Shown: positions 12,115-49,089 of the stretch, in pieces
Numbering within the stretch: position 1 is the stretch's first letter
How the letters are laid out: each line of letters begins with the position of its first letter
DNA from: Thioalbus denitrificans
Lineage (GTDB): Bacteria > Pseudomonadota > Gammaproteobacteria > DSM-26407
NCBI RefSeq assembly: GCF_003337735.1
Contig: NZ_QPJY01000005.1
Coordinates: forward strand, 18,265 to 82,264
DNA: 64,000 bases
Reading direction: 5' to 3'
Translations under genes and position numbers: made by a program
Notes under the pieces: generated by a model
Databases searched by the model: none
The model's input: only the letters and a program-made list of their open reading frames with translations
Told to the model about the DNA's origin: nothing

Positions 12115-12115
12115 G

Positions 12116-13417: not shown

Positions 13418-13484
13418 GGGGTTTGCTGATCTCTCCGGGTGTCCGGCGGGAGATTCAGCAAGAACCGGACCAGCGCCGCGGGGG

Positions 13485-15952: not shown

Positions 15953-15968
15953 AGCAAAAGACGTGCCG
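15953..15968 (-). promoter_or_regulatory. Sigma-54 promoter of the left H4MPT operon
   Basis: On the minus strand the sequence reads CGGCACG-TCTT-TTGCT, which matches YTGGCACG-N4-TTGCW at all but the first T and has exact GG-N10-GC spacing. The expected start site near 15942 gives a leader of about 30 nt ending in GGAGGA before the TTG start of the PTPS gene. Confidence 0.75.
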
Positions 15969-16009
15969 CCCCGCAAGGGCGCCGTGCGCCCCCGCGGGAG
16001 GCCGGTAAC

Positions 16010-17962
16010 CTAGCGCGGCGGCCGGATGCCGTAGCGCTTCATCTTGCGGTAGAGGGTGTTGCGGCTGAGGTTGAGCCGCGCCGCGACGCGGGTGACGTTC
16101 CAGTGCAGGGCCTCCATCTCGCGCAGGATGGCGTCGCGCTCGGCGGCGGCCAGGGCGTTCTCCGGCTGCTGCCCGGACCCGTCCCCGGCGGCGGCCAGCG
16201 GCAGCTCCAGCAGCTCGTCGGGCAGATCGTGCACGGTGATGTTGTCGCTCTCCGCCAGCCCCACCACCGTGCGCATGACGTTGCGCAGCTGGCGGATGTT
16301 GCCGGGCCAGGCGTAGGCGTCGAGCCGGGCCAGCGCCTCGGTGTCGAAGTGCAGCTCCCGCCCCCCGGACTCGGCCCGGGCGAGGGCCTCGATGAGGGCG
16401 CGGCGGTCGCCGCGCTCCCGCAGCGGCGGCAGGGTGAGGGTGATGCCGTGCAGGCGGTAGTAGAGATCCTGGCGGAAGCGTCCCTCGGCCACCTGCTGCT
16501 TCAGGTCCCGGTGGGTGGCGCTGATGAGGCGGATGTCCACCGCCACGGCGGTCTCGCCGCCCAGCGGGAACACCTCCCGCTCCTCCAGCACCCGCAGCAG
16601 GCGCGCCTGCAGGTGCAGGGGCATGTCGCCGATCTCGTCCAGGAACAGGGTGCCGCCGTCGGCCTGCAGGATCTTGCCGCGGCTGCCCTCGCGGCTGGCG
16701 CCGGTGAAGGCGCCGGGGCGGTAGCCGAACAGCTCGCTCTCGATGAGCGTCTCCGGCAGCGAGGCGCAGTTGACCGCCACGAACGGCTTGTGGCCGCGGC
16801 GCCCGGCCTGGTGCACGGCCTTGGCGAACATGTCCTTGCCGGTGCCCGTCTCGCCCATCAACAGCAGCGGGATGTCCCGGTCGCTGAGGCGGCGCGCGCG
16901 CTCGATGTTGCGGCGCATGCGCGCGTCCCCGAACTCCAGCGCGGCCAGGGGGTCGCCCGGCTCGTCGGTCACCGCCGCCACCGCCGGGGCCGCGCGGCGG
17001 CCGCGGGCGGCCGCCGCGAAGGGGGCCGGGGCCTGGTTCTCGGGCGGCTGGAACACGGCGAAGTAGCGCCGCCCGCCGCGGGCCTCGCGGATGGGCAGGG
17101 GCTGGAAGGTGTGGTGCTCGGCCCGCTGCAGCGCCTGGGGCAGGGAGAGGTTGAACACCTCCTGCAGGGGGCGGCCGACGATGTCCGCCTGGGAGACCAG
17201 GTCGAGCTGGAACAGGGCGCTGCGGTTGGCGGCGAGGATGCGCCCGTCGGGCTCGAAGGCGATGGCGCCCTCGCCCAGGGTGCTGACGAACTCGGGGCGG
17301 CTGTGGAAGCGGGCGATGTAGCTGGACTTCATGGCGCACAGGAAGACCCGGTTCTCGATCATCTGCGCCGACATGTTCACCAGCACCATGGTGTGCTGCT
17401 GGGCCAGGCTCGATTCGCTGGAAGCGTCGAGCACCGCCAGCATCTCGCCGTGGGGATCGAAGATGGGGGCGGCGGAGCAGGTCAGCCCGGTGTGGTGGGC
17501 GAGGAAGTGCTCGCGGTGGTGGATCACCAGCGGGCGCTGCTCCACCAGGCAGGTGCCCATGCCGTTGGTGCCCTGGGCCGCCTCGCTCCAGACCGCGCCC
17601 GCGTGCATGCCGCTGCGGGCCGCCGCCTCGGTGAACAGCGGGTCGCCGACGAAGTTGAGCACCACGCCGTCGCGGTCGGTGAGCAGGATGGCGTAGCCGG
17701 AGCCCGCCACCTGCTGGTAGAGGCTGGTCATCTCCGTGCGGGCGATGTCGAGCAGCCGGTCGCAGCGCTCCTGGCGCTGCAGCAGCTCGCCCCGCTCCAG
17801 CACCACCGGCTCGCGGCGGTCCGCCGGGTGCAGGCCGTGATCCTCCACGCAGCGCCGCCAGGACTGGGTGATATGGTTCTCGGGGACTTCCAGGCCCCGG
17901 GTGTTGCCGCGGACCACGGCCTGCACCAGGCGGGCGTGGTTGGCGATATCCGGATAGTGCAT
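16010..17962 (-). CDS. Sigma-54-dependent AcoR-type transcriptional activator
   Basis: The 650-residue enhancer-binding protein has a GAF sensor domain (about 50-205), a PAS-like domain (about 218-300), an AAA+ domain (about 335-565) and a C-terminal Fis-type helix-turn-helix (about 605-645). The AAA+ domain has Walker A GETGTGKD, the sigma-54 contact loop GAFTGA and Walker B GGTLFLDEIGD; the last domain contains NVTRVAARLNLSRNTLYRKM. The architecture is that of AcoR and related activators of alcohol and aldehyde catabolism, where the GAF domain binds a small molecule. It lies between the left H4MPT operon and the formate dehydrogenase genes. Every sigma-54-like promoter nearby is a plausible target. 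Confidence 0.92.
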   Translation of the reverse strand: MHYPDIANHARLVQAVVRGNTRGLEVPENHITQSWRRCVEDHGLHPADRREPVVLERGELLQRQERCDRLLDIARTEMTSLYQQVAGSGYAILLTDRDGVVLNFVGDPLFTEAAARSGMHAGAVWSEAAQGTNGMGTCLVEQRPLVIHHREHFLAHHTGLTCSAAPIFDPHGEMLAVLDASSESSLAQQHTMVLVNMSAQMIENRVFLCAMKSSYIARFHSRPEFVSTLGEGAIAFEPDGRILAANRSALFQLDLVSQADIVGRPLQEVFNLSLPQALQRAEHHTFQPLPIREARGGRRYFAVFQPPENQAPAPFAAAARGRRAAPAVAAVTDEPGDPLAALEFGDARMRRNIERARRLSDRDIPLLLMGETGTGKDMFAKAVHQAGRRGHKPFVAVNCASLPETLIESELFGYRPGAFTGASREGSRGKILQADGGTLFLDEIGDMPLHLQARLLRVLEEREVFPLGGETAVAVDIRLISATHRDLKQQVAEGRFRQDLYYRLHGITLTLPPLRERGDRRALIEALARAESGGRELHFDTEALARLDAYAWPGNIRQLRNVMRTVVGLAESDNITVHDLPDELLELPLAAAGDGSGQQPENALAAAERDAILREMEALHWNVTRVAARLNLSRNTLYRKMKRYGIRPPR

Positions 17963-17996
17963 GTCATCCTCCTGGCAGCGCGTTCCGCGGACTGGC

Positions 17997-18011
17997 GCAA
18001 GAAGCGTGCCT
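17997..18011 (-). promoter_or_regulatory. Sigma-54 promoter of the activator gene
   Basis: The minus strand reads AGGCACG-CTTC-TTGC with exact GG-N10-GC spacing, one base from the -24 consensus. The start site would fall about 25 nt before the ATG at 17962, leaving room for the AGGAGG site. This implies autoactivation. Confidence 0.6.
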
Positions 18012-18153
18012 TGTGGTGCTGCAATCCCCTGGCCGCGCCGTTCTCCGGGACCGTGGAGACGGCGCTGTTCGTATTGTGGTCATGCTGCAGTAATACCCGA
18101 GTCTAGTCCCGGGGAAATCCTCCGGGCAACCCCGGGCCGCTGTCAGCGCGGGA

Positions 18154-18177
18154 CACTGTCACGGAAACGTGACAGTG
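18154..18177. promoter_or_regulatory. Perfect palindrome, candidate activator-binding site
   Basis: CACTGTCACG (18154-18163) and CGTGACAGTG (18168-18177) are exact inverted arms around GAAA. It lies about 165 bp upstream of the activator gene's -12 element and 2 bp beyond the formate dehydrogenase alpha stop. The 12-mer ACACTGTCACGG found here recurs exactly (inverted) at 42608-42619 between the divergent fhcD and beta-RFAP synthase promoters. The core TGTCACG occurs twice between the mtoX and SCO promoters. It could also be a transcription-end hairpin of the fdh operon, but there is no T-run. Confidence 0.6.
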
Positions 18178-18179
18178 CG

Positions 18180-20942
18180 TCACCCGTCCGGGTGAGCGTT
18201 CGGGCCCGGCGCGGGCTCCACCCGCACGGCGCAGAACTTGAATTCCGGGATCTTCGCCACCGGGTCGAGAAAGTCGTGGGTGAGCAGGTTGGCGGCCGCC
18301 TCGTGGTAGCAGAAGGGCAGGAACACCTGGCCCGGCGACAGGCCGCGGTCGGCGCGGGCGAAGGCGGTCACCGCGCCGCGCCGGGAGCGCAGGGTCACGG
18401 CCTCACCCGGGCGCAGGCCGAGCCGCTCCAGCTCCTCCGGGTGCAGGCTCGCCACCGGGAAGGGCTCGATGGCGTCGAGCACCGTGGCGCGGCGGGTCAT
18501 GGCGCCCGTGTGCCAGTGCTCCAGCTGGCGGCCGGTGATGAGCACCCAGGGGTAGTCGCCGTCGGGCAGCTCGGCGGCGTTGCGCAGGGGCGCGGGCACC
18601 AGCCTGGCGCGGCCGCCGGGGCGGGGGAACTCCTCCGTGAAGATGACCGGCTGGCCCGGATCGGCCTCGCTGGGGCAGGGGTAGGTGACGGCGTCCTCCC
18701 GCTCCAGGCGCTCCCAGGAGATGCCGGCGATGCTCGGCATGGCCCGGCGCAGCTCGGCGAAGACGCTGGCCGGCCCGTCGTAGTTCCAGTCCAGCCCCAG
18801 GCGCCGCGCCATCTCCTGGACGATCCAGAGGTCCTGGCGCGCCGCGCCCGGCGGGTCGAGGGCGGCCCGTCCCAGCTGCACCCGGCGGTCGGTGTTGGTG
18901 AAGGTGCCGCTCTTCTCCGGGAAGGCGGAGGCGGGCAGGATGACGTCGGCGTACCAGGCCGTCTCGGTCATGAAGATCTCCTGCACCACCAGGTGCTCCA
19001 GCCCGGCGAGCGCGGCGCGGGCGTGGGCCAGGTCCGGGTCGGACATGGCCGGGTTCTCGCCCATGACGTACATGCCGCGAATCTCGCCGGCCTTGGCCGC
19101 GTGCATGATCTCCACCACGGTGAGCCCCGGCTCGGGATCGAGGGCGGTGCCCCACAGGGCCTCGAAGCGCGCCCGCGCCTCCGGGTTGTCCACCCGCTGG
19201 TAGTCGGGGAAGACCATGGGGATGAGCCCCACGTCGGAGGCGCCCTGCACGTTGTTCTGGCCGCGCAGGGGATGCAGGCCCGTGCCCGGCCGGCCGATCT
19301 GGCCGCTGATGAGGGCGAGCGAGATGAGGGCGCGGGAGTTGTCGGTGCCGTGCACGTGCTGGGACACCCCCATGCCCCAGAAGATGATGGCGTTGGGGGC
19401 CGAGGCGTAGACCCGCGCCACCTCGCGGATGGTGTCGGCGTCGATGCCGCACACCGGGGCCATGGCCTCCGGCGTGAACGCGGCAAGGTGTGCCTTGAGC
19501 GCCGCGTACTCCTCGGTGCGCTCGCGCACGAACGCCTCGTCCACCAGTCCCTGTTCGATGACGGCCTGCATCAGGGCGTTGAGCAGGGCCACGTCGCTGT
19601 CGGGCCGGAACTGCAGGAAATGGCGGGCATGGCGGGCGATGGCCGTGCGCCGCGGGTCCATGACGATGAGGGTCTTGCCCGCCCGGGCCGCGTTCTTGAT
19701 GAAGGTGGCCGCCACCGGGTGGTTGTCGGTGGTGTTGGAGCCGATGATGACGATGACGTCCGCCTCGGCCACGTCCGCCACCGGGTTGGAGACGGCGCCG
19801 GAGCCGATCATCTCCAGCAGCGCCGCCACCGAGGAGGCGTGGCACAGGCGCGTGCAGTGGTCCACGTTGTTGCTGCCGAAGCCCGTGCGCACCAGCTTCT
19901 GGAACAGGTAGGCCTCCTCGTTGGAGCCCTTGGCGGAGCCGAAGCCGGCCAGGGCCTTGGGGCCGTGCCGGTCGCGGATGGCCTTGAGGCCGCCGGCGGC
20001 GAACGCCAGCGCCTCCTCCCAGCCCGCCTCGCGGAAGTCGCGGAACGGGTCGTCGTGATCGAGCCCGAGCTCCGGCGTCCTGGGCGCGTCGGCGCGGCGA
20101 ATCAGCGGCTTCGTCAGGCGGTGGCGGTGGTGGACGTAGTCGAAGCCGTAGCGCCCCTTCACGCACAGCCGCCCGTGGTTGGCGGGGCCGTCGCGGCCGG
20201 TGACCTGGAGGATGCGGTTGTCCTTCACGTGGTAGGTGAGCTGGCAGCCCACGCCGCAGTAGGGGCAGACCGAGTCCACGGAGCGGTCGGGCGCCTCCAG
20301 GGCCACGCCGCCGGCGGGCGCCAGGGCGCCGGTGGGACAGGCCTGGACGCACTCGCCGCAGCCCACGCAACTGCTCGTACCCATGGGATCGCCCAGGTCG
20401 AAGACGATGTGGGCCTGGCTGCCGCGGGCGGCGTAGCCGATGACGTCGTTGGCCTGGGTCTCGCGGCAGGCGCGCAGGCAGCGGGTGCACTGGATGCAGG
20501 CGTCCAGGCGCACGGCGATGGCCGGGTGGGAGGCGTCCGCCGCCACGTCGGGGCGGGCCGGGAAGCGCGGCGGGCCCAGCTCCAGCTTCCGGCGCCACTG
20601 GTCCAGCTCGTTGTGCAGGGTGTAGGGCGCTTCGGGCATGTCGGAGGCCAGCAGCTCCAGCACCAGGCGCTGGGCGCGGCGGGCGCGCCCGGTGGCGCTG
20701 TGGACCACCATGCCCTCGGTGGGGGCGCGGCAGCAGGAGGGGGCCAGCACCCGCTCGCCCTCGATCTCCACCACGCAGGCGCGGCAGTTGCCGTCGGCGC
20801 GCAGGCCGTCCTGGTGGCAGAGGTGGGGAATCTCCACCCCGTGGCGGCGGGCCGCCTGCAGCAGGGTCTCGCCCGGCAGCGCCTCCAGGGTTCGGCCGTC
20901 GAGGGTGAAGCTCACGGGGGCGGTCGCGGGGAGCGCGGACAT
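18180..20942 (-). CDS. fdh1A: NAD-type formate dehydrogenase alpha subunit (Mo/W)
   Basis: The 920-residue subunit oxidises formate to CO2 at a molybdo- or tungsto-pterin site. In order it has an N-terminal NuoG-like [2Fe-2S] domain (Cys in HLCHQDGLRADGNCRAC), a His/Cys [4Fe-4S] region, and two ferredoxin-like clusters (CIQCTRCLRAC and CVGCGECVQACPTGA). A pterin domain follows, starting CPYCGVGC, with catalytic Cys in CTRLCHASS, and a C-terminal MopB_CT domain. It is a Cys, not Sec, enzyme. Its two-subunit partner arrangement resembles FDH1 of Methylobacterium. It overlaps the beta gene as TGATG. It completes the C1 route to CO2 and yields NADH. Confidence 0.93.
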   Translation of the reverse strand: MSALPATAPVSFTLDGRTLEALPGETLLQAARRHGVEIPHLCHQDGLRADGNCRACVVEIEGERVLAPSCCRAPTEGMVVHSATGRARRAQRLVLELLASDMPEAPYTLHNELDQWRRKLELGPPRFPARPDVAADASHPAIAVRLDACIQCTRCLRACRETQANDVIGYAARGSQAHIVFDLGDPMGTSSCVGCGECVQACPTGALAPAGGVALEAPDRSVDSVCPYCGVGCQLTYHVKDNRILQVTGRDGPANHGRLCVKGRYGFDYVHHRHRLTKPLIRRADAPRTPELGLDHDDPFRDFREAGWEEALAFAAGGLKAIRDRHGPKALAGFGSAKGSNEEAYLFQKLVRTGFGSNNVDHCTRLCHASSVAALLEMIGSGAVSNPVADVAEADVIVIIGSNTTDNHPVAATFIKNAARAGKTLIVMDPRRTAIARHARHFLQFRPDSDVALLNALMQAVIEQGLVDEAFVRERTEEYAALKAHLAAFTPEAMAPVCGIDADTIREVARVYASAPNAIIFWGMGVSQHVHGTDNSRALISLALISGQIGRPGTGLHPLRGQNNVQGASDVGLIPMVFPDYQRVDNPEARARFEALWGTALDPEPGLTVVEIMHAAKAGEIRGMYVMGENPAMSDPDLAHARAALAGLEHLVVQEIFMTETAWYADVILPASAFPEKSGTFTNTDRRVQLGRAALDPPGAARQDLWIVQEMARRLGLDWNYDGPASVFAELRRAMPSIAGISWERLEREDAVTYPCPSEADPGQPVIFTEEFPRPGGRARLVPAPLRNAAELPDGDYPWVLITGRQLEHWHTGAMTRRATVLDAIEPFPVASLHPEELERLGLRPGEAVTLRSRRGAVTAFARADRGLSPGQVFLPFCYHEAAANLLTHDFLDPVAKIPEFKFCAVRVEPAPGPNAHPDG

Positions 20943-23267: not shown

Positions 23268-23343
23268 TCTGCGTCTCCCTGCGGGTCATCCTGTCTCATT
23301 CCGGCCCGCTTGCGCTGTGGGCCGGGGGTCCGGGGGCGGGCGA

Positions 23344-23359
23344 TGCAGGATGCATACCA
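23344..23359 (-). promoter_or_regulatory. Sigma-54-like promoter of the SCO-fdh operon
   Basis: The minus strand reads TGGTATG-CATC-CTGCA. The invariant GG-N10-GC is kept, with two mismatches in the -24 block and one in the -12 block. The leader to the SCO start is about 65 nt. It mirrors the mtoX promoter around the shared half-sites, which supports it. Confidence 0.5.
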
Positions 23360-23410
23360 GCCGCCCGCGCCCGGATTCTTCCCGCCGCGCCCGGCGCAGG
23401 AGCCCGCGGG

Positions 23411-23463
23411 GTGTCACGCTTTCCGGGCACTCGCGCGGCCAGTCTGTTGCCGTGGTGTCACGC
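23411..23463. promoter_or_regulatory. Two direct GTGTCACGC sites between divergent promoters
   Basis: GTGTCACGC occurs at 23411-23419 and again at 23455-23463, 44 bp apart. The outer edges are each about 52 bp from the -24 element of the promoter on that side, so the arrangement is symmetric. Their core TGTCACG equals one arm of the palindrome upstream of the sigma-54 activator gene. They fit upstream activating sequences shared by mtoX and SCO-fdh. The rest of 23268-23656 shows no other gene. Confidence 0.55.
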
Positions 23464-23514
23464 CGGGCACCGCCCGGCGGGCGGTGGCCATTGTCCTATG
23501 AGGTTGCAGGGGTA

Positions 23515-23530
23515 TTGGCACCGAAATTGC
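23515..23530 (+). promoter_or_regulatory. Sigma-54 promoter of mtoX
   Basis: TTGGCAC-CGAAA-TTGC has the full -24 hexamer, the -12 TTGC and exact GG-N10-GC spacing. The start site would be near 23541, giving a leader of about 115 nt to the mtoX ATG. Confidence 0.75.
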
Positions 23531-23656
23531 CTTTTGTCATATCAGGGCTGCCCGCGCGGCCGGGTGCCGGAGTCCGGAACCGGCGGCGCGAAGGTGCATA
23601 AATCAACGGCAGCCCCCCAAAGGAATCTCTTTCTGAGCGAGGTGGAGACAACCATC

Positions 23657-38502: not shown

Positions 38503-39171
38503 CTACGGTGGGGACTCCGTAGAACTACAGGGTTCCGGGGCCGGCGCGGCTGCCGCGCCGGCCCCGGCGGCGAGGAGCAGGGTGGCCAGCCCGGCCACCG
38601 AGCGCACCTCGAGCTTGCGCAGGATACTGGCCCGGTGGGCCTCCACGGTGCGCGGGCTGAGCGCGAAGGCGCGCGCCACCTGCTTGTTGGACTCGCCCCG
38701 GGCGAGGTGGTGCGCCACCTCCGTCTCCCGCGGGGTGAGCCGGGCCAGGCGCAGCGCCGCCCCGGCCTCGGCCCGCTGCCGTCTCCAGCGCTCCGCGTCC
38801 CGCTCCAGGGCCTCGCGGATGCGCGCGAGCAGGACGTGGTTGCGGAACGGCTTCTCGATGAAGTCCAGCGCGCCCCGGCGCATCATCTCCACCGCCATGG
38901 CGATGTCGCCGTGGCCGGAGACGACGATGACGGGCAGGCCGGGATCCCGTTCGGCCAGGGCCTGCTGCAGTTCCAGGCCGTCCATGCCGGGCAGGCAGAC
39001 GTCGGTGACCAGGCAGGCGGGGCCGGCGGGTGTGTAGGCTTCAAGGAAGGCGAGGGCGGAGTCGAACTCCCGCGCCGGCAGGTGGACCGAGCGCGCCAGC
39101 ACGGCGATGGCCTCGCGGATGGCGGGATCGTCGTCCACCACGTACACGGTCCCGGCGGGGGCGGAGGTCAT
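38503..39171 (-). CDS. FixJ/NarL-type response regulator
   Basis: The 222-residue regulator has a receiver domain (about 8-125; acidic DDD, phospho-Asp in VTDVCLPGMDG, Lys in EKPF) and a LuxR-type helix-turn-helix (about 145-205; LTPRETEVAHHLARGESNK). An Ala-rich tail follows. It overlaps the histidine kinase gene by ATGA and is the last gene of the fhcD-fhcC-kinase-regulator run. The response is likely tied to C1 or redox state. TodS/TodT- and FixL/FixJ-like pairs are its relatives. Confidence 0.9.
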   Translation of the reverse strand: MTSAPAGTVYVVDDDPAIREAIAVLARSVHLPAREFDSALAFLEAYTPAGPACLVTDVCLPGMDGLELQQALAERDPGLPVIVVSGHGDIAMAVEMMRRGALDFIEKPFRNHVLLARIREALERDAERWRRQRAEAGAALRLARLTPRETEVAHHLARGESNKQVARAFALSPRTVEAHRASILRKLEVRSVAGLATLLLAAGAGAAAAPAPEPCSSTESPP

Positions 39172-40733
39172 GGGCCGGCCACCGGCAGGGTGAAGCGGAA
39201 GCGGGTCTCCCCGTCCTCCACGGTGCAGGCGATGCGCCCGCCGTGGTCCTCCACGATGGTGCGGCTGATGGACAGCCCCAGGCCGAGACCGCCGCTGCGG
39301 GTGGTGAAGAAGGGGGTGAACAGCCGGGTGCAGTGCTGCGGGCTGATGCCGCAGCCATTGTCACAGACCTGGAAGGCGATGGTCGCCCCGTCCTCGAGCG
39401 CCGCCTCCAGGTTGATGCGGCGCTCGCCGGCGGGGACCCGGGCCAGGGCCTGGATGGCGTTGGTGATGAGGTTGATCAGCACCTGCTCGATCTGCACCCG
39501 GTCGGCGCGTACCGGCGGTAGGTCGGGCGTGACGGAGCTGTGCAGGATCACGCCGTGGTGGCGCAGCTCCGCGGCGGTGAAATGCAGCACGTTGTCGACG
39601 ATGACCTGCGGCGGGGTGGCCGCCGGCCGCGGGGCGCGCTTGCGCACGAAGTCGCGCAGCCGGCCGATGATGGTCGCGGCGCGGCCCGACTGTTCCACCA
39701 CGCGCTCCAGCAGGTTCCGCACCTCGCCGTCGGCGCCGGGCAGCGCGGCGGCCGATTCCGCGTAGCTGGAGATGGCGCACAGGGGCTGGCTCAGTTCGTG
39801 GGCCAGCCCCGAGGCCAGTTCGCTCAGGGTGCTCAGCCGGCAGACGTGCGCCAGCTCGGCCTGCTGCTGGCGCAGCTTGGCCTCGGCACGCTTGCGCTGG
39901 TCGATGTCCCGGGTGATGGCCAGCAGGGCGTCGATATGCCCCTCGCCGTCGCGCAGCGGCGTGGCGTGGGTCTCGAGCCAGCGGCGCCGGCCGCCGAGGC
40001 CCGTCACCTCGAAGGCCAGGGTGGCGCGCTCGCCGGCGAAGACCCGCCGGGTGAGGGCCCGGTAGGCCGCGTGATAATCGGGGACCAGGAAATCGTAGAC
40101 GGTGCGGCCCACCACCTGCCCGGAGGAGACGGCGTCGAGCAGGGCGCGGCCGGCCGGGTTGATCTCCAGGATGACGCCCTGCCGGTCGTGCAGCTTCACG
40201 CACTCGGGCTCGGACTCGATGATGGTCCGCAGGCGGTTGCGCTGCTCCTCCAGCTGCCGCGTCATCCACTTGCGCTCGGTGATGTCGCGGGTGATGGCCA
40301 GCAGTCCCGTCACGGCACCGCCGGGGGCGGCGCGCAGGGGCACGGCGTGGGTCTCCAGCCAGCGCCGCCGGCCGCGGAAGGTGAGCAGCTCGAACTCCAT
40401 GGTGCCGGGCTCGCCCCTGAACACCGCCTCGGTGAGGGCCCGGTAGGCGGCGTGGTGTTCGGGGGCGATGACGCCGTAGACGGAGCGGCCGACGATGCGT
40501 CCCGGACGGCTGGCCTCCAGCAGCGCCAGCCCGGCGGCGTTCATCCGCTCGACGATGCCCTCCCGCGATTGCAGCTTGACGCACTCCGGGGCGGCCTCGA
40601 ACAGGGTCCGGAACAACAGGTCGTCGCCCCGGGCGCCACGCCGCCGCGCCTGCCGCCGCAGGCCCAGCCAGGCGGCGCCGCCGCCCGCGGCGAGCCCGGC
40701 GGCGAGTGCGCTGATGAGAGCGGCGTGGGTCAT
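39168..40733 (-). CDS. PAS-PAS sensor histidine kinase
   Basis: The 521-residue kinase has one N-terminal membrane segment (about 5-24), two near-duplicate PAS/PAC modules (about 45-160 and 165-280; both with a FEL/FEV-type F-alpha pattern and RRRWLETHA), HisKA with the phospho-His in GLAHELSQPL, and an HATPase domain (CDNGCGIS, GLGLGLSIS). It is FixL/TodS-like without a visible heme-binding signature. It starts 6 bp after fhcC, so it is co-transcribed with fhcDC. Confidence 0.9.
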   Translation of the reverse strand: MTHAALISALAAGLAAGGGAAWLGLRRQARRRGARGDDLLFRTLFEAAPECVKLQSREGIVERMNAAGLALLEASRPGRIVGRSVYGVIAPEHHAAYRALTEAVFRGEPGTMEFELLTFRGRRRWLETHAVPLRAAPGGAVTGLLAITRDITERKWMTRQLEEQRNRLRTIIESEPECVKLHDRQGVILEINPAGRALLDAVSSGQVVGRTVYDFLVPDYHAAYRALTRRVFAGERATLAFEVTGLGGRRRWLETHATPLRDGEGHIDALLAITRDIDQRKRAEAKLRQQQAELAHVCRLSTLSELASGLAHELSQPLCAISSYAESAAALPGADGEVRNLLERVVEQSGRAATIIGRLRDFVRKRAPRPAATPPQVIVDNVLHFTAAELRHHGVILHSSVTPDLPPVRADRVQIEQVLINLITNAIQALARVPAGERRINLEAALEDGATIAFQVCDNGCGISPQHCTRLFTPFFTTRSGGLGLGLSISRTIVEDHGGRIACTVEDGETRFRFTLPVAGP

Positions 40734-40739
40734 CGGTGC

Positions 40740-41552
40740 TCAGTCCGGCGCGAAGAGCTCTCCCCTGCCGTCCGTGGCCAGGTCGCCCACCCAGCGCTGC
40801 AGCGGGTCTCCCCGCAGCCGTTCCGCCCAGGCCGGCTGGTGGCGGGCCAGCACCGGGATGAGCAGCTCGAGAAAGCCCGGACGCCAGGCGCCGGTGGCGT
40901 TGAAGGTGGGCGGCAGCCCTTGCGCCGGTGTGCCCAGCAGCAGCGTTCCCCGGCGCATGCCGGTGCCGGCCAGCGCGCCGGCCCGGCCCAGCACCGCCAC
41001 GGTCCCGGCGATGATCCGCGCCGCGCAGCACTCCCCGGCGTCGCCGTCCACCAGCAGCAGGCCGCGGCGCATCCGCTCCCCGGCGCGGGCGCCGGCGTTG
41101 CCGGCCACGTGCAGCACCCCGCCGGTCATGCCGCGCCGCTCCCCGGCGCGGGGGGCGCCGGGACGCTCGCCGGCATCGCCGTGGACGCGGATCTCCCCGC
41201 CGGCCATGGCGCTGCCGGTGAAGGGCCCGCTGCTGCCGCGGATCTCCAGCACCCCGCCGCGCAGCCCCTCGCCGGCGTACCAGCCCACGTCCCCCTCCAC
41301 CAGCACCCGGCCGCCGTCGAGTCCCGCCGCCACGCCGTCGAGGCGGGGATCGCCGCCGAGGATGCGCAGCTCGGCCGGGTCGCCGGGGCGCACGCGGAAC
41401 AGCTCGCCGAGGGCCACCGGCGTCCGGCCGCAGGGCAGCGCCAGCCGTTCGATGGCCCCCGCGCCGAGCCCGGCGAGCCGGTCCGGGCGGAGGCCGGAGA
41501 GATCCACCCGGCCGGGGAGTGGCTGCCTCAGCTCCAGGGTCAGGGCGCTCAT
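40740..41552 (-). CDS. fhcC: Formyltransferase/hydrolase complex subunit C, FhcC
   Basis: The 270-residue protein is a right-handed beta-helix of the FwdC/GltB C-terminal type, with repeating Gly-rich turns such as GDAGERPGAPRAGERRGMTGG. FhcC is a structural subunit that binds FhcD and FhcA in the Fhc complex. It overlaps fhcD by ATGA and is followed by the kinase gene. Length is typical of methylotroph FhcC. Confidence 0.92.
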   Translation of the reverse strand: MSALTLELRQPLPGRVDLSGLRPDRLAGLGAGAIERLALPCGRTPVALGELFRVRPGDPAELRILGGDPRLDGVAAGLDGGRVLVEGDVGWYAGEGLRGGVLEIRGSSGPFTGSAMAGGEIRVHGDAGERPGAPRAGERRGMTGGVLHVAGNAGARAGERMRRGLLLVDGDAGECCAARIIAGTVAVLGRAGALAGTGMRRGTLLLGTPAQGLPPTFNATGAWRPGFLELLIPVLARHQPAWAERLRGDPLQRWVGDLATDGRGELFAPD

Positions 41553-42457
41553 GCCAGCACCTCCCGCAGGGGGTAGTGGAACTGGCCGAGCCGGCCGCCG
41601 TAATTGCCCGCCGAGATGCGGCGCACCCCGCTCTCCGGGCCGCCGGCGCAGGCCGCCCCGATGCCGGCGCGCAGGGCGCCGCGCACGTCGGCGTCGGTCA
41701 GGCCGTTGACCACGATCTCCAGCACCGCCCGGATCTCCGGCGCCAGGCGCGATTCCACCAGTCCCCGCAGGGTGGGGCAGTAGGCGTCGTTGGTGGAGGC
41801 GGGCAGGGCCTTGTACTTGGAGCCCACCTTGGAGCCGGAGCGCACCACGCCGCCCGGGAAGGGGAGTACCACGTTGGGCAGCCGGCGCATGGCCGTCACG
41901 GCCGCCTCGCAGGCCGCGAGCGCCGCCTCCACCCCGGTGGCCAGCACCAGGAAGTTGCCGCCCCCCACCGCCTTCACCCGGGCGCTCAGCTCCGCGCACA
42001 GGAACTCCCCGTCCATCACCGGGATGCGCCAGTAGCGCCGCCCGTCGATGAGCTTGCTGGCCTGGTGGCCGTCGCCGAAGAAGCGCAGCCGCTGGCCGAG
42101 GGGGACCGGCTTGCCGCCCTCCGGCCCGGCTTCCATCCCGGCGAAGAGGGCGGTGGTGGGGCAGGTGAGCACGCACTGGCCGGCGCGCCGCTCGAGGTGC
42201 TTGGCCAGGTCGTCGCCCGACATGGCGAACAGCAGCACGCTCACGCCCGGGCGGCCGTCGGGTGTCTGCGCCGGCGCCAGCTCCGCCTCGATGCCCGCCT
42301 CCACGCCGCAGCCGATCACCGAGGTGGCGAACCCGGTCATGGTCTCGGCGGCGGTCCGGGCCCAGCGGGCGCTGATGGCGGTGATGATCACCCGCGTGGC
42401 CTGCATGCCGAAGGCCTCGGCGAAGGTGTCCTCGATCTCGACTCCGTTCAGGTGCAC
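41549..42457 (-). CDS. fhcD: Formylmethanofuran:H4MPT formyltransferase, FhcD
   Basis: The 302-residue Ftr homologue starts with HLNGVEIEDTFAEAF, the usual start of the family. It transfers the formyl group from formyl-H4MPT to methylofuran, the step before hydrolysis by FhcA. Motifs VIITAIS and CPTTALFAGM are present. The start codon is GTG at 42457 with GAGGAGCG just upstream. First gene of the fhcD-fhcC-kinase-regulator operon, divergent from the beta-RFAP synthase operon. Confidence 0.93.
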   Translation of the reverse strand: MHLNGVEIEDTFAEAFGMQATRVIITAISARWARTAAETMTGFATSVIGCGVEAGIEAELAPAQTPDGRPGVSVLLFAMSGDDLAKHLERRAGQCVLTCPTTALFAGMEAGPEGGKPVPLGQRLRFFGDGHQASKLIDGRRYWRIPVMDGEFLCAELSARVKAVGGGNFLVLATGVEAALAACEAAVTAMRRLPNVVLPFPGGVVRSGSKVGSKYKALPASTNDAYCPTLRGLVESRLAPEIRAVLEIVVNGLTDADVRGALRAGIGAACAGGPESGVRRISAGNYGGRLGQFHYPLREVLA

Positions 42458-42517: not shown

Positions 42518-42533
42518 AGCAGGGTCCGTGCCA
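42518..42533 (-). promoter_or_regulatory. Sigma-54 promoter of the fhcDC operon
   Basis: The minus strand reads TGGCACG-GACC-CTGCT: complete -24, one mismatch in -12 and exact GG-N10-GC. Predicted start near 42507, leader about 50 nt. Confidence 0.7.
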
Positions 42534-42587
42534 GCGCCGCCGGGGCCATGGAACCGGGCGGATGGGGGCCGGACCGGGACGGTGGCG

Positions 42588-42619
42588 GTGTCCCGTGTGC
42601 GCAGGGACCGTGACAGTGT
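42588..42619. promoter_or_regulatory. Candidate activator site between divergent C1 promoters
   Basis: GTGTCCCG (42588-42595) and CGTGACAGTGT (to 42619) form an imperfect inverted pair. The 12-mer at 42608-42619 is the exact reverse complement of one near 18153 in the activator-gene palindrome. It lies about 105 bp from the predicted start sites of both divergent promoters. The rest of 42458-42742 shows no gene. Confidence 0.55.
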
Positions 42620-42689
42620 GCCCCAGCCCGGTGGCAGCGGTGCGCCGCACGGGGCCGGGGCGGCGTGGTGAATCCCGGGCTTGCGGCGG

Positions 42690-42705
42690 TTGGCATGGTC
42701 GTTGC
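42690..42705 (+). promoter_or_regulatory. Sigma-54 promoter of the right H4MPT operon
   Basis: TTGGCAT-GGTCG-TTGC has exact GG-N10-GC spacing and one mismatch in the -24 block. A start near 42717 makes the ATG at 42743 the preferred start of the beta-RFAP synthase gene. Confidence 0.65.
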
Positions 42706-42742
42706 GATGGTGGGCGGCATGGACAGCGGAGCGCATACAGAG

Positions 42743-43726
42743 ATGGCCGGCGGCGTCCGGGTGGAGACCCCCACCCGGCTGCACCTCGGCTTCGTGGACC
42801 TCAACGGCGGGCTGGGGCGCCGCTTCGGCAGCCTCGGCCTGACCATCGACGGCTACGCCACCCGGGTCCGGGTGGCGCCGGCGGCGCGGGACGGCGCCGA
42901 GGGGCCAGAGGCCGGGCGCGCCCTGGCCTATGCCCGGCGGGTGCTGGAGGCCGCCGGCCATGCCGGCGCGGTGCGGGTGCGGGTGGAGTCCACCGTGCCC
43001 GCCCACCAGGGGCTCGGGTCGGGCACCCAGCTCGGCCTGGCGGTGGGATGCGCGGTGGACCGGCTGTTCGGGCTCGGCCTCGGCACCCGTGGCGTGGCCC
43101 GGATCGCCGAGCGCGGCGCCCGCTCCGGCATCGGCATCGGCGCCTTCGACCAGGGCGGCTTCCTGGTGGACGGCGGGCGCGGCGCCGGTGACGGGCTGCC
43201 GCCGGTCATCGCCCGCCACCCGTTCCCGGAGGCATGGCGGGTGGTGCTGCTGCTGGACGCGCGCGGCGGCGGTCTGCACGGGCCGGCCGAGGCGGCGGCG
43301 TTCCGCGCGCTGCCCGAGTTCCCGGCGGAGCGGGCCGCCCATCTCGGCCGCCTGGTGCTGCTGGGAATCCTGCCGGCGCTGGCGGAAGCCGATTTCGAGC
43401 CCTTCGCCCGCGGGGTGGGCGAGCTGCAGCGCACGGTGGGCGATCACTTCGCCCCGGCCCAGGGCGGGCGCTTCACCAGCCCGGCGGTGGCCGCGGCGCT
43501 GGCCTGGTGCGAGGCCCGGGGGCTGTACGGCGTGGGCCAGAGCTCGTGGGGACCCACCGGCTTCGTGCTGGTGCCCGACGCCGATACCGGTTCGCGGCTG
43601 GTGGCGGGGCTGCGCCGGCGCTTCGGCGAGCTCGGCCCGCTGCGCTGCCGGCTGGTGGCGGCCCGCAACCACGGCGGCCGCATCGATGTGGGGGCGCGGC
43701 CGGAGCGGCTGCGCCGCGTGACCTGA
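42743..43726 (+). CDS. Beta-ribofuranosylaminobenzene 5'-phosphate synthase
   Basis: The 327-residue GHMP-kinase-fold protein (PTRLHLGFVDLNGG; LGSGTQLGLAVG) is beta-RFAP synthase (MptG-type). It condenses p-aminobenzoate with PRPP, the first committed step of the H4MPT arylamine chain; pabB, the PABA source, is downstream. Motif SSWGPTGF near the C terminus is typical. The frame is open from 42665, but the sigma-54 promoter lies inside that extension. First gene of the right operon. Confidence 0.9.
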   Translation: MAGGVRVETPTRLHLGFVDLNGGLGRRFGSLGLTIDGYATRVRVAPAARDGAEGPEAGRALAYARRVLEAAGHAGAVRVRVESTVPAHQGLGSGTQLGLAVGCAVDRLFGLGLGTRGVARIAERGARSGIGIGAFDQGGFLVDGGRGAGDGLPPVIARHPFPEAWRVVLLLDARGGGLHGPAEAAAFRALPEFPAERAAHLGRLVLLGILPALAEADFEPFARGVGELQRTVGDHFAPAQGGRFTSPAVAAALAWCEARGLYGVGQSSWGPTGFVLVPDADTGSRLVAGLRRRFGELGPLRCRLVAARNHGGRIDVGARPERLRRVT

Positions 43727-43743: not shown

Positions 43744-44640
43744 ATGGAGAAGCCGTACCTGCTGCACCTGCTGACCCCGGCGAAGAACCCGAGCCCGTTC
43801 GACGTGAACATGGCCCTCGACGCCGGCTGGAATCACTGCATTCCCTATACCGGGGTCGCCCTGGAGGAGGTGCCCGGGCTGGTGCAGGACGCCATCTTCT
43901 CCCGCGGCCCCAAGGGGGTGGCGCGCACGGGCCTGTTCCTGGGCGGCCGGGACGTGCACCTGGCCATGGAGATGCTGGAGCGGGCCCGGGCCGCCATGGT
44001 GCCGCCGTTCACTGTGGCCGTGCTGGCCGATCCCAGCGGCGCCTTCACCACCGCCGCGGCCATGGTGGCCTGCGCCGAGCGGGCGCTGCGGCAGCGCGGC
44101 CTGGACGGCCTGGCGGGACGGGAGGTGCGGGTGTTCGGCGGCACCGGCCCGGTGGGCACCAGCGTCGGGATCCTGGCGGCCGGGGCGGGGGCGCACGTGC
44201 GCCTGGTGAGCCACGAGGGCGCGGGTCCGGCGCAGGCCGCGGCGGCACGCTGCGAGCGCTACGGGGTGCGGCTGCAGGGCGGCGACGGGAGCGGCGCGGA
44301 CGCCATCGCGGCGCTGCTGGCGGATGCCGAGGTGGTCTTCAGCGCCGCCCGCGCGGGCGTGCAGGTGCTCGACTCCGGGCTGCTCGCCGGCGCCGGACGG
44401 CTGGAGGTGGCCTGTGACGTGAACGCGGTGCCGCCGGCGGGCATCGCCGGGGTGGCGGCCGGCGCCGACGGCGAGCCGCTGGCGGGCACCCCGCGCGGGG
44501 CCGCCGGCCTCGGCGCCCTGGCGGTGGGCAACATCAAGTACCGCACCCAGCAGGCGCTGCTGCAGCGCCTGCGTGGCGGGGAGGCGGTGGACCTCCACTT
44601 CGGGCAGGCGCTGGAGGTGGCCCGTGGGCTGTGCGACTGA
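43744..44640 (+). CDS. mtdB: Methylene-H4MPT dehydrogenase, MtdB
   Basis: The 298-residue enzyme oxidises methylene-H4MPT to methenyl-H4MPT with NAD(P)+. It starts with the family signature LLHLLTPAKNPSPFDVNMA, and has the dinucleotide site VFGGTGPVGTSVG and the late GALAVGNIKYRTQ. Length is typical. GAGGAG lies 10 bases before the ATG. It sits between beta-RFAP synthase and an ATP-grasp gene, which starts inside its last codons. Confidence 0.94.
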   Translation: MEKPYLLHLLTPAKNPSPFDVNMALDAGWNHCIPYTGVALEEVPGLVQDAIFSRGPKGVARTGLFLGGRDVHLAMEMLERARAAMVPPFTVAVLADPSGAFTTAAAMVACAERALRQRGLDGLAGREVRVFGGTGPVGTSVGILAAGAGAHVRLVSHEGAGPAQAAAARCERYGVRLQGGDGSGADAIAALLADAEVVFSAARAGVQVLDSGLLAGAGRLEVACDVNAVPPAGIAGVAAGADGEPLAGTPRGAAGLGALAVGNIKYRTQQALLQRLRGGEAVDLHFGQALEVARGLCD

Positions 44641-45754
44641 CAACGCGCCGCTGCTGCTGGCGGCCACCAGCGCCCGCGCCCTGGCCCAGTCCGCCCGTCG
44701 CGGCGGCTTCGCGGTGCGGGTGCTGGATCGTTTCGGCGACCTGGACACCCGCGCCGCCGCGGACGGCTTCGCCCTGTGGCCGGAGACGGCCGGGGCCGTG
44801 GCGCTGGCCCGCCTCGGCCGGGCGCTGGACCCGGCCGCGGCGCTGGTCTACGGCGCCGGCTTCGAGGGGGCGGCGGAGTCGCTGCGGGCGCTGGCCGCGG
44901 GGCGGCGGCTGTACGGCAACGCGCCGGAGGTGCTGGAGCGGTTGGGCGAGCCCCGGGCGCTGTTCGAACTCTTCGCGCTGCTGCGCATCCCCCACCCGGA
45001 GGTGCGCTTCCGGCCGCCGCGGCGCCTCGACGGCTGGCTGTGCAAGGACGCGGGCGGCTGCGGCGGGATGGGCGTGGGCCCGGCCCGGGTGCAGGCCGGC
45101 TGTCCCGCGGGGCGCTACTGGCAGCGCCGGCTCAACGGTCCGGTCCACTCCCTGCTGTTCCTGGCCGACGGCGAGCGGCTGCAGGTGGTGGGCTGGAACC
45201 GGCTCGACGCCTGCCGCATCGACCACGGCCATCCCTATGCCTACGCCGGCGCCTGCGGGCGCGCCGCCCCGCCGGCCCACCTGCGCGGGGCGGCCCTGCG
45301 CCACGCCCGGCGCCTGGTCCGGGCGCTGGGCCTGGTGGGGCTGAACGGCATCGATTTCATCGTCGCCGGCGCCCGGGTGCGGCTGCTGGAGCTCAACCCG
45401 CGCCCGGGTGCCAGCTTCGCCCTCTACGACGCCGACTGGCCGGGCGGGCTGCTGCGGGCGCACGTGGGCGCCTGCGGCGGTCGGCTGCCGGTGGCGGGGC
45501 GTACGCCGCCGGGCCCGGCGCGGGCGCAGCGGGTGCTCTACGCCGCCGTGGAGACGCGGATCCCCCCGGATTTCCACTGGCCGGAATGGTGCGCGGACCT
45601 GCCGCGGCCGGGGAGCGCCGTCGCCGCCGGCGAGCCGGTGTGCAGCGTGCTGGCCGAGGCGCCCACCGCGGGCGCCGCGCGGCACCAGGGCGCCCGGCGG
45701 GTCGCGCGGCTGCGGCGCCTGCTGGGGCACGCCGGGTGCAGGAGGGCGGCATGA
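44624..45754 (+). CDS. ATP-grasp protein of the H4MPT/methylofuran cluster
   Basis: The 376-residue ATP-grasp-fold protein has a substrate-side N-terminal domain (about 10-120) and ATP-grasp core residues such as LNGIDFIV and [11 protein letters not shown]. Clusters with H4MPT often carry such an uncharacterised ligase; adding glutamate to the growing methylofuran or pterin side chain is the obvious guess. The start is GTG at 44624 with GGAGG upstream; it overlaps mtdB by 17 bp and mch by ATGA. Confidence 0.82.
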
Positions 45755-46743
45755 GCGTTCAGCCCCTGCAGTCGCAGCCGGCGCCCAGCGTCAACGCCCT
45801 GAGCGCGCCGCTGGTGGAGTCCCTGGTGGCGGACGCCGCGGCCCTGCGCCTGGGCGTGCGCCGCCTGGCGGACGGCGCCACCCTGGTGGACGCGGGCATC
45901 CGCGTGCCGGGCGGACTCGAGGCGGGCCGCCGCATCGCCGAGATCTGCCTTGGCGGGCTCGGCCGGGTCAGCCTGCTGTCCGACGGCGCCGGCGACTGGC
46001 CCCTGGGCGTGCACGTGCATACCGCCCAGCCGGTGCTTGCCTGCCTGGCGAGCCAGTATGCCGGCTGGAGCCTGGCCCATGGCGAGGGCCGCGGCGCCTT
46101 CCACGCCCTCGGCTCCGGCCCCGGGCGGGCGCTGGCCCGCAAGGAGCCCCTGTTCGCCGAGCTCGGCTACGCGGATGCCGCGGAGCGCACCTGCCTGGTG
46201 CTGGAGACCGACCGCGAGCCGCCGCCGGAGCTGGTGGCGCGCATCGCCCGCGACTGCGGCGTCGCCCCCGGGGGGCTCACCCTGATCCTCACCCCCACCC
46301 GCAGCCTGGCCGGCACCGTGCAGGTGGTGGCGCGGGTGCTGGAAGTGGCCCTGCACAAGGCCCATGAACTCGGTTTCCCGCTCCCCGCGGTCGTTGACGG
46401 GGCGGGGGCGGCCCCGCTTCCGCCGCCCGCCCCGGATTTTTTGACCGCCATGGGCCGCACCAACGACGCCATCCTGTTCGGCGGCCGGGTGCAGCTCTAC
46501 GTGGACGGCGACGAGGAGGCCGCGGGCGAGCTGGCCGAACGCCTGCCGAGCAGCGCCTCGCGGGACTACGGCCGCCCCTTCGCCGAGGTGTTCCGCGACT
46601 ACGACCACGACTTCTTCCGCATCGATCCGCTGCTGTTCAGCCCCGCGCAGGTGCTGGTGAGCGTGCTCGCCAGCGGCCGCACCCACCGCGGCGGCGCCCT
46701 GGCGCCGGAGCTGCTGGCGGCGAGCTTCGGGGGCGGGGCATGA
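45751..46743 (+). CDS. mch: Methenyl-H4MPT cyclohydrolase, Mch
   Basis: The 330-residue enzyme hydrolyses methenyl-H4MPT to formyl-H4MPT. Family landmarks include [11 protein letters not shown] near the start, [23 protein letters not shown] and [11 protein letters not shown]. Length matches methylotroph Mch. A GGAGGG site precedes the ATG. It overlaps genes on both sides by ATGA, within the right operon. Confidence 0.94.
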
Positions 46744-47654
46744 GCCTGCGCATCGCCATCGTCACCGACGACCCGGGCTGGCACGGGGCCCGGCTGCGGG
46801 CGGCGTTCGCCGCCCGCGGCTGCGCGGTGCGCCTGGTCTCCCTGCGCGAGTGCCGCCTGGAGACCGGGCCGGGCGCGCCCGGGGTGTGGCTGCCGGGCTT
46901 CGGCGGGCGGCTGCCCGACGGGGTGTTCGTGCGCGGGGTGCCGGGCGGCAGCCTGGAGGAGGTGGTGTTTTATCTCGATATCCTGCACGGCCTGCGCGAG
47001 CTCGGCGTGCCGGTGGTGAACGACGCCCGCGCCATCGAGCGCACGGTGGACAAGGGCATGACCAGCCTGCTGCTGCACCGGGCCGGGATCGCGACCCCCC
47101 CGGCGGCGGTGGTGACCGGGGCCGGGGAGGCGCGCCGGCGGGTGCTGGAGGCGCGGGCGCGGGGCGGCGAACTGGTGTGCAAGCCCCTGTTCGGCTCCCA
47201 GGGCGAGGGCGTGGTGCGGGTGACGGAGCCGGATCAGCTGCCCCCGGCCGCGGCGTGCCGGGGCGTCTGGTACCTGCAGCGGTTCGTCCCCGTCGCCGGG
47301 CGCTGCCACGACTGGCGGGTGTTCGTCATCGGCGGCCGCGCGGTGGCCGCCATGCGCCGCGAGGGCGAGGGCTGGGTGAGCAACGTGGCCCGCGGCGGGC
47401 GCTGCGAGGCGGCGCTGCTGGACGACACCCTGCGCTCCCTGGCCGAGGGGGCGGTGGCCGCGCTGGAGATGGACTACGCCGGGGTGGACATCATCCGCGA
47501 CGCCGACGGCCGGGCCTGGGTGCTGGAGGTGAACAGCGTGCCGGCCTGGAAAGGGCTGCAGTCGGTCTGCAGCCTGGATATCGCAGCGGCGCTGGCGGAC
47601 CACTGCCTGCGCCGCTGCGCCGGCGCGCCGGCGGCGCTGGAGGCGCTGCCGTGA
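46740..47654 (+). CDS. RimK-type ATP-grasp ligase of the H4MPT cluster
   Basis: The 304-residue RimK/MptN-like protein starts [16 protein letters not shown] and has an ATP-grasp core with [20 protein letters not shown] and the Mg-binding [12 protein letters not shown]. RimK-family ligases add glutamate to a carboxylate, and MptN does so in tetrahydrosarcinapterin formation. This gene (Orf5 type in methylotroph loci) could build glutamyl tails on methylofuran or H4MPT. The reaction is not established here. Confidence 0.85.
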
Positions 47655-48586
47655 GCGCCCGGCGCCTGCGGGCGGCCTACCTCGAGGCGTGCCGGCTGGA
47701 CCTGGCCGCCCTGAAGCCGGGCAACGTGGGCTGGCACGCCCCCGGCCACGGCATGGCGCCGCGGGACTTTCTGCTCAGCGCGCGGGTGAGCGCCGCGGCG
47801 CTCACCCGCGCCGGCGCCGGGCTCGGGGGGCGCATCGAGGCGGCGGTGGCGGCCACCCGCGCGGCGGTGGGGTGCAACACCAACCTCGGCATCCTCCTGC
47901 TCTGCGCGCCGCTGCTGGAGGCGGGGCCGGCGGAGGGGCCGGAGCAGCTGCGCCGGCGCCTGCAGGCGGCGCTGGCGCGCTGCGGGGTGGCCGAGTGCGA
48001 GGCGGTCTACCGCGCCATCCGCCAGGCGGCGCCGGGCGGCCTCGGCCGCAGCCCGCGCCATGACGTGCACGGGCCGGCGCGCACCGGGCTGGTGACGGCC
48101 ATGGCCGCCGCCGCCGCCCGCGACCGCATCGCCCGCCAGTACGCCACCGGCTTCGCCGACCTGTTCGGCTACGCCCTGCCGCGCCTGCGCCGCCACCTGG
48201 CGCGCTGGGGCGACCGGGCCTGGGCGGCCAGCGCCCTCTACCTGGACCTGCTCGGCCGCTACCCCGACAGCCACGTGGCGCGCCGTCATGGCGCGGCGGC
48301 GGCCGAGCGGCTGCGCCGGCGGATGGCCCCCCACGCCCGGGCGCTGGCGGCGAGCACCCGGCCCGCGGCGCGGCGCGCCCGCCTGCTGGCGCTGGATCGA
48401 ACCCTGAAGAAACGCGGGATCAACCCGGGCACCACGGCCGATCTGACCGTGGCGACCCTGCTGGCGGAGCGGCTCACGTCGGGCCGCCGGCAACCGATCC
48501 CGATCCCTGGCCGGGAACCCGGGGAGGTCCCGGCACCGGCAGTACCACGACCCCTGAACGAAAGAGGAGCAAGACAATGGCAGTGA
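47651..48586 (+). CDS. CitG-like protein of the H4MPT cluster (Orf7 type)
   Basis: The 311-residue protein resembles triphosphoribosyl-dephospho-CoA synthase (CitG/MdcB): [27 protein letters not shown] and SPRHDVHG. In H4MPT loci this family occurs without citrate lyase, so a nucleotide/PRPP-type transfer in cofactor synthesis is inferred. The start is GTG at 47651, and the C terminus overlaps fae by 10 bp. The final 45 residues are Pro/Arg rich. Confidence 0.85.
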
Positions 48587-49089
48587 TCAACCGCACGATG
48601 GTGGGCGAGGCCCTGGTGGGCGACGGCAACGAGGTGGCCCACATCGACCTCATCATCGGCCCGCGCGGCTCGGCCGCCGAGACGGCCTTCTGCAACGGTC
48701 TGGTCAACAACAAGGACGGCTTCACCAGCCTGCTGGCGGTGGTGGCGCCGAACCTGCCCTGCAAGCCCAACACCATGATGTTCAACAAGGTCACCATGAA
48801 GGGCGCCAAGCAGGCGGTGCAGATGTTCGGCCCGGCCCAGCGCGGCGTGGCCATGGCCGTGGCCGACTGCGTCGAGGACGGCACCATCCCCATGGACGAG
48901 GCCGACGACCTGTTCATCAGCGTGGGCGTGTTCATCCACTGGCTGGCCGAGGACGACAACAAGATCCAGGACTACAACTACGAGGCCACCAAGCTCTCCA
49001 TCCAGCGCGCCGTCGCCGGGGAGCCGAAGGCGGCCGACGTGGTGGCCCGCAAGAGCGTCGAGCAGCACCCCTTCGCGGCCCACGGCTGA
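48577..49089 (+). CDS. fae: Formaldehyde-activating enzyme, Fae
   Basis: The 170-residue protein condenses formaldehyde with H4MPT to methylene-H4MPT. It carries the family motif [11 protein letters not shown] (His22 is the presumed catalytic base), [13 protein letters not shown] and [15 protein letters not shown] precedes the ATG. A very stable hairpin follows it, which fits a highly abundant protein. It handles the toxic formaldehyde formed by MtoX. Confidence 0.96.

Follow-up and report, generated by a model that had tools for sequence, protein, structure and literature searches.

Gene content and organisation of the locus

The stretch of Thioalbus denitrificans DNA analysed here (64,000 nucleotides of contig NZ_QPJY01000005.1, hereafter the window) carries genes for H4MPT-dependent formaldehyde oxidation, namely fae, mtdB, mch, fhcABCD and the beta-RFAP synthase gene; the fhcB assignment scores 185.8 bits, which is under its NCBIfam cut-off of 327.8. 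The fhcD and beta-RFAP synthase genes diverge from an interval of 285 bp (Table 1). A preliminary description of this DNA had placed both halves of the pathway under promoters in this interval. This stands for fhcD and fhcC, which share the left operon with a two-component pair, but not for fhcA and fhcB, which lie elsewhere (10480-13417) with a sigma-54-like site of their own. The genes of the two-component pair, a PAS histidine kinase and a FixJ-like response regulator (38503-40733), are found directly 3' of fhcC, and the same organisation is seen in the relative G246.

Table 1. Genes and predicted regulatory sites in the window
Feature	Coordinates	Strand	Remarks
fhcD, formylmethanofuran:H4MPT formyltransferase	41549..42457	-	Pfam FTR, FTR_C; GTG start at 42457
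fhcC	40740..41440	-	GXGXG domain; 5' end approximate
PAS histidine kinase	39168..40733	-	downstream of fhcC
FixJ-like response regulator	38503..39171	-	in left operon
beta-RFAP synthase, GHMP kinase fold	42743..43726	+	probable ATG start, 3' of predicted transcription start
mtdB, methylene-H4MPT dehydrogenase	43795..44640	+	Mpt_N; 5' end approximate
ATP-grasp protein, H4MPT cluster	44573..45754	+	
mch, methenyl-H4MPT cyclohydrolase	45787..46743	+	5' end approximate
MptN/RimK-type glutamate ligase	46740..47654	+	
fae, formaldehyde-activating enzyme	48577..49089	+	TIGR03126
Sigma-54 -24/-12 promoter (predicted) CTGGCACGGACCCTGCT	42518..42534	-	toward fhcD-fhcC-histidine kinase-response regulator
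Sigma-54 -24/-12 promoter (predicted) TTGGCATGGTCGTTGCG	42690..42706	+	toward beta-RFAP synthase-mtdB-ATP-grasp-mch-...-fae
Core enhancer element (predicted) GTGACAgtgTGCCCC	42610..42624	+	degenerate GTGACA-N3-TGTCAC copy, overlaps 12-mer 42608-42619
Weaker inverted half-site TGTCCC	42589..42594	+	15 bp from core; TGTCAC in most relatives
Proposed activator, AcoR-type sigma-54 enhancer-binding protein (EBP)	16010..17962	-	GAF-PAS-AAA-HTH_8
Enhancer of EBP gene (predicted)	18157..18183	+	TGTCAC-N6-GTGACA overlapping GTGACAgtgCGTCAC (18169-18183)
Sigma-54-like site AAGGCACGCTTCTTGCG	17996..18012	-	50 bp 5' of EBP gene
Sigma-54-like site GCGGCACGTCTTTTGCT	15953..15969	-	5' of PTPS-family gene that follows EBP gene
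Sigma-54-like site CTGGTCCGGTTCTTGCT	13457..13473	-	5' of fhcB-fhcA
Sigma-54 site TTGGCACCGAAATTGCC	23515..23531	+	5' of mtoX; TGTCAC half-sites ~60 and ~100 bp upstream

A predicted divergent pair of sigma-54 promoters

The interval contains two outward-facing -24/-12 sites, one toward fhcD and one toward the beta-RFAP synthase gene, as had been claimed. Both have GG at -24 and GC at -12 in the TGGCAC-N5-TTGCW context. Only 7 sequences of the 4.14-Mb genome match YTGGCACGRNNNYTGCW perfectly, the leftward site being one of them; when up to one mismatch is allowed, 53 matches are found genome-wide, as compared to 23 for the reversed control pattern. Constitutive sigma-70 transcription, the observation that would have spoken against such a pair, finds no support, as the genome encodes rpoN (Sigma54_DBD, 236.6 bits) and no sigma-70-like promoter was detected in the interval by a consensus scan.

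Taken alone, the window makes a weak case, because sigma-54-like matches across it are no commoner than in shuffled sequences (raw counts were not taken as evidence) and because many GC-rich 12-mers recur by chance. The evidence for the pair is thus comparative. In the sister species (G001, 91% identity in RFAP synthase), both promoters are identical at 17 of 17 positions and a 12-mer located between them at 12 of 12, versus 92 of 137 (67%) for the other bases between the sites. An outward pair with a score of at least 0.83 was never obtained in 300 dinucleotide shuffles of each of 13 regions, 11 of which reach this score in reality, the remaining two (L150 and L182) being just below. The divergent pair of sigma-54 sites between fhcD and the RFAP synthase gene is thereby confirmed as real.

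The central element

Between the two promoters lies an imperfect inverted repeat, TGTCCC-N15-GTGACA (42589-42615). Measured from its centre, the -24 GG pairs of the two promoters are 70.5 and 90.5 bp away and the predicted transcription starts about 95 and 115 bp, which fits the approximately 105 bp previously given for both. The right half of the repeat falls within the exact 12-mer CCGTGACAGTGT (42608-42619), correctly reported as common to this site and to the palindrome of the activator gene, where it is found as its reverse complement (18153-18164). The motif itself had to be revised: TGTCAC-N-GTGACA is absent from the window even with two mismatches, the activator palindrome being TGTCAC-N6-GTGACA, a form that the central site lacks. 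The part of the central site that is conserved in relatives is GTGACA-N3-TGYnnn (42610-42624). The GTGACA-N3-TGTCAC form is matched with two mismatches at this place and with one at 18169-18183, the best copy in the window. With these two palindrome mismatches and its TGTCCC left half, the enhancer of the window is among the weakest of the set.

When all inverted 6-mers between the two promoters were scanned without bias, TGTCAC came first; 10 of 15 non-redundant regions have it, with spacers confined to 15-20 bp, while the maximum for any half-site in shuffled sequences was 4. When outer half-sites were tested at gaps of 1-5 bp, a gap of 3 on the RFAP synthase side alone stood out. The corresponding RTKACA-N3-TG, facing the RFAP synthase gene, occurs in 12 of 14 pair-bearing regions versus 0 of 20 controls, the shuffle mean of 0.15 being descriptive since this extension was spotted post hoc. 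As a genome-wide query, TGTCAC-N6..20-GTGACA was not specific and was rejected, its match counts equalling the control frequency in several genomes. Two perfect repeats, TGTCAC-N10-GTGACA and TGTCAC-N18-GTGACA, are found 85 bp apart elsewhere in the present genome (G000, contig C2, 64529-64643; L251/L259) beside a recombinase-like gene; these copies (C2:64529 and C2:64614) were set aside because of this neighbour, which points to an apparent mobile element.

The spacing of the half-sites is variable (15-20 bp at the fhc/RFAP synthase interval, 6 at the EBP gene), which is unusual for a single dimer site. If each palindrome were one dimer site, the paired sites would be about two (EBP gene) or about three (fhc/RFAP synthase) helical turns apart. 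At the level of sequence, the locus has a conserved palindromic enhancer upstream of the target promoters, as expected for a bEBP.

Clearer copies are found in relatives. Thiobacillus thioparus DSM 505, whose predicted sigma-54 promoter sequences are ATGGCATGGATCCTGCT and CTGGCATAGCAATTGCT, has a perfect 15-bp GTGACA-N3-TGTCAC palindrome at the fhc/RFAP synthase interval. Its genome contains only two copies with at most one mismatch, this one and one 5' of mtoX, both accompanied by outward sigma-54 sites. G240 carries a perfect copy about 210 bp 5' of the EBP gene and another, with one mismatch, at the fhc/RFAP synthase interval. For G372, a sigma-54 pair with a repeat was predicted before the genome was looked at. 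The pair was found (TTGGCATGGTCTGTGCT leftward, TTGGCATGCGGGTTGCT rightward) with GTGACAgagTGTCCC between the promoters, the TGTCAC-N18-GTGACA form having 2 mismatches; the prediction holds for the promoters and in part for the enhancer.

The candidate activator and its gene

The proposed activator, one of about 20 EBP-type proteins of the genome, has an intact GAFTGA loop in its sigma-54 AAA domain and a C-terminal Fis-type HTH (HTH_8, 42.8 bits), both of which are also intact in its orthologs. Its best NCBIfam model is DhaR (NF008485), at 311.8 bits, which is far below the equivalog cut-off of 551. The domain order GAF-PAS-AAA-HTH_8 is common to this protein and to AcoR/DhaR-type bEBPs, but the latter are linked to acetoin or dihydroxyacetone genes, whereas the present EBP is linked to H4MPT/methofuran genes and its proposed site, GTGACA-N3-TGTCAC, differs. 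In relatives, the gene adjoins PTPS, DUF6513 and DUF447 genes and often has mfnE or mfnD, from the cofactor clusters, in its vicinity. Directly upstream of it in the window (18180-21482) is a gene for a formate dehydrogenase alpha subunit of 1100 aa with a NuoG-like N-terminal part.

The palindrome 5' of the EBP gene reads CACTGTCACG-GAAA-CGTGACAGTG (18154-18177), that is, TGTCAC-N6-GTGACA. With the sigma-54-like site found there, it makes autoregulation likely in this genome. The palindrome is restricted to the window, the sister species G001 and G240; autoregulation is not general, since most relatives have neither a sigma-54 site nor the palindrome 5' of the EBP gene.

Distribution of the promoter pair and of the activator

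An RFAP synthase alignment, used to scan the genome collection, gave 80 loci. The outward sigma-54 pair between fhc and the RFAP synthase gene was found in 18 gamma- and betaproteobacterial genomes, among them four lucinid-clam symbionts including Ca. Thiodiazotropha endolucinida, Thiohalocapsa, T. thioparus DSM 505 and gamma/beta MAGs; G246, G240, G085 and G056, from other families of Gammaproteobacteria, have it in the same interval. It was absent from all 23 other genomes with divergent fhc and RFAP synthase genes, which include Azospirillum, Methylobacillus, Methyloversatilis, Labrys, Ancylobacter and Methylococcus.

Co-occurrence was analysed for one of the roughly 20 EBP-type proteins, the one encoded at 16010-17962, orthologs being defined by at least 51% identity over the N-terminal sensor region (322 aa). 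Of the 12 genomes of the RFAP synthase scan that have both sites, 11 have an ortholog, the exception being a MAG (G283) that carries the pair and the repeat; both genomes that have the RFAP synthase-side site alone have one too. None of the 23 pair-less divergent genomes has one (best match 43%). With the genomes compared outside the scan added, the EBP is found in 16 of 17 pair-bearing genomes versus 3 of the 26 that do not have the pair (Fisher p = 5.6e-8), and in an even sample of 369 gammaproteobacteria, fhcD is found in 12 of 13 EBP genomes versus 37 of 356 others (p ~1e-10). Both p-values overstate independence, as these are related genomes whose clusters may be passed on as units, and the genes for RFAP synthase and the EBP could have been inherited jointly. 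Three EBP genomes (G121, G288 and G289) have a single sigma-54 site at the fhc/RFAP synthase interval.

Some further loci deserve mention. EBP homologs (53% and 47% full-length) occur in two gammaproteobacteria without detected fhcD, G396 (L324) and G026 (L064); in G396, a formate dehydrogenase gene is nearby and a sigma-54-like site lies close to the activator gene. In G371 (contig C104, L323), the activator gene is clustered with fae and fhcD, and a sigma-54 site there is oriented toward fae.

Interpretation of the shared element

We consider that the AcoR-type EBP probably activates both promoters from one shared enhancer, which would place H4MPT-dependent formaldehyde oxidation under divergent sigma-54 control; we would give this reading a probability of roughly 0.8. 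The sequences directly show the two promoters and the enhancer element, that these are conserved and that they co-occur with the activator; from this we infer binding by the EBP, the direction of regulation, the inducer and autoregulation. What the preliminary description had proposed, a divergent pair that has an activator site in common with the activator's own promoter, is supported by lineage-wide conservation, by the co-occurrence of activator orthologs, by an independent motif at both places and by the promoters of G372. That the activator controls both operons, as was also stated, is likewise something we infer.

The most serious alternative is that the sigma-54 promoters are real and that the central repeat is bound by another EBP or by the FixJ-like regulator, the linked EBP controlling other genes. 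The genome has about 20 EBP-type matches to choose from, both the window and G246 have the two-component genes directly 3' of fhcC, and the variable spacing of the half-sites would also be compatible with another protein. We nevertheless find this unlikely: FixJ-type regulators do not have the sigma-54 AAA domain, and no such kinase and regulator genes were found beside fhc in T. thioparus, G240 or Ca. Thiodiazotropha, despite the presence there of the pair and of a form of the repeat, while it is the linked EBP that co-occurs with the pair and that has the same palindrome at its own promoter in the window, G001 and G240.

It seems even less probable that only one of the promoters is enhancer-driven in this organism, the other being a relic. 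Relatives with a single site do exist, two retaining the one on the RFAP synthase side and G121 the other, and the best-conserved half-site faces the RFAP synthase gene; against this stands the complete identity of both sites with those of the sister species, in an interval of which the other bases have diverged by a third. Finally, a repressor or shared operator site flanked by incidental GC-rich -24/-12 matches, with transcription driven by sigma-70, is highly improbable: it could draw on Methylosinus sporium 5, where the RpoD motif predominates on methane and central carbon genes (PMC12403871), on the shuffle-like frequency of sigma-54-like matches in the window and on H4MPT genes of other methylotrophs that do not have the sites, but the outward pairs keep their position and orientation across families, are not reproduced by shuffling in any of the 13 regions, occur almost only where the EBP does, and lie in an interval without a sigma-70-like promoter.

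Under control by the shared EBP, sigma-54 RNA polymerase would wait as a closed complex at 42518-42534 (leftward) and 42690-42706 (rightward). Presumably triggered by a C1-related signal through its GAF/PAS part, the EBP would bind the GTGACA-N3-TGTCAC-type element at 42610-42624 together with the inverted half-site 15 bp away and would use ATP to open one or both promoters, so that the fhcD-fhcC-histidine kinase-response regulator side and the RFAP synthase-mtdB-mch-fae side would be turned on together. It probably also activates its own gene (18157-18183) and mtoX.

A possible wider regulon including mtoX

The window also contains mtoX, encoding methanethiol oxidase (23268-25039; NF052453, 780 bits), which is divergent from a SCO1/SenC gene and is followed by a SCO1-MauG-type gene. 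A sigma-54 site with TGTCAC half-sites precedes mtoX in the window, G246, G056, G279 and T. thioparus; in G372, a sigma-54 site and TGTCTC-N6-GTGACA are found at this place. Such a site with half-sites was found in none of 6 EBP-less genomes, nor in the lucinid symbionts, G284 and G287. As the presence of mtoX does not strictly track the EBP, we rejected the idea that the EBP is a regulator of methanethiol oxidation only. It is more likely than not that one AcoR-type activator recognising GTGACA-N3-TGTCAC runs a dedicated sigma-54 regulon in sulfur-oxidising gamma- and betaproteobacteria, made of the whole H4MPT pathway and, in several lineages, mtoX.

Relation to known systems and biological meaning

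The mechanism itself, in which an AAA+ activator bound at an enhancer opens sigma-54 promoters, is well known, and divergent sigma-54 promoters with a shared enhancer are known for other bEBPs. The layout here is the same, with one enhancer about 60-200 bp from each outward -24/-12 site; the difference is in the target, which here is H4MPT-dependent formaldehyde oxidation. In open papers we found no account of the H4MPT pathway being controlled by sigma-54, nor a description of shared-enhancer sigma-54 control used for it. FlhRS, HxlR, TtmR, AdhR and other formaldehyde regulators control formaldehyde-producing or -consuming genes and, in the passages considered from a 2022 review (PMC8879981), none of them is a sigma-54 activator of the H4MPT pathway, unlike the EBP proposed here. 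For the symbionts of Ctena orbiculata and Ca. Thiodiazotropha endolucinida, a conserved C1 oxidation cluster has been described from its genes and their expression, with MoxX named as a regulator; the cluster has the same H4MPT genes, and the passages considered do not note sigma-54 control (PMC6712303). Both the sigma-54 pair and the EBP occur in genomes of this group. Methylosinus sporium 5 is an H4MPT methylotroph that also has rpoN; its transcription-unit map places sigma-54 sites on nitrogen genes, and the RpoD motif predominates on methane and central carbon genes (PMC12403871).

The sources searched say little on how the H4MPT pathway is switched on outside the classical methylotrophs. 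The present analysis provides a concrete candidate activator, site and promoters for methanethiol/C1 degraders, including the lucinid clam symbionts; T. thioparus DSM 505, which is in culture, makes them accessible to experiment. A further suggestion is that the cleavage of methanethiol, with its release of formaldehyde and sulfide, is co-induced with formaldehyde disposal. If true, this regulon would switch one-carbon oxidation on and off in organisms outside the classical methylotrophs.
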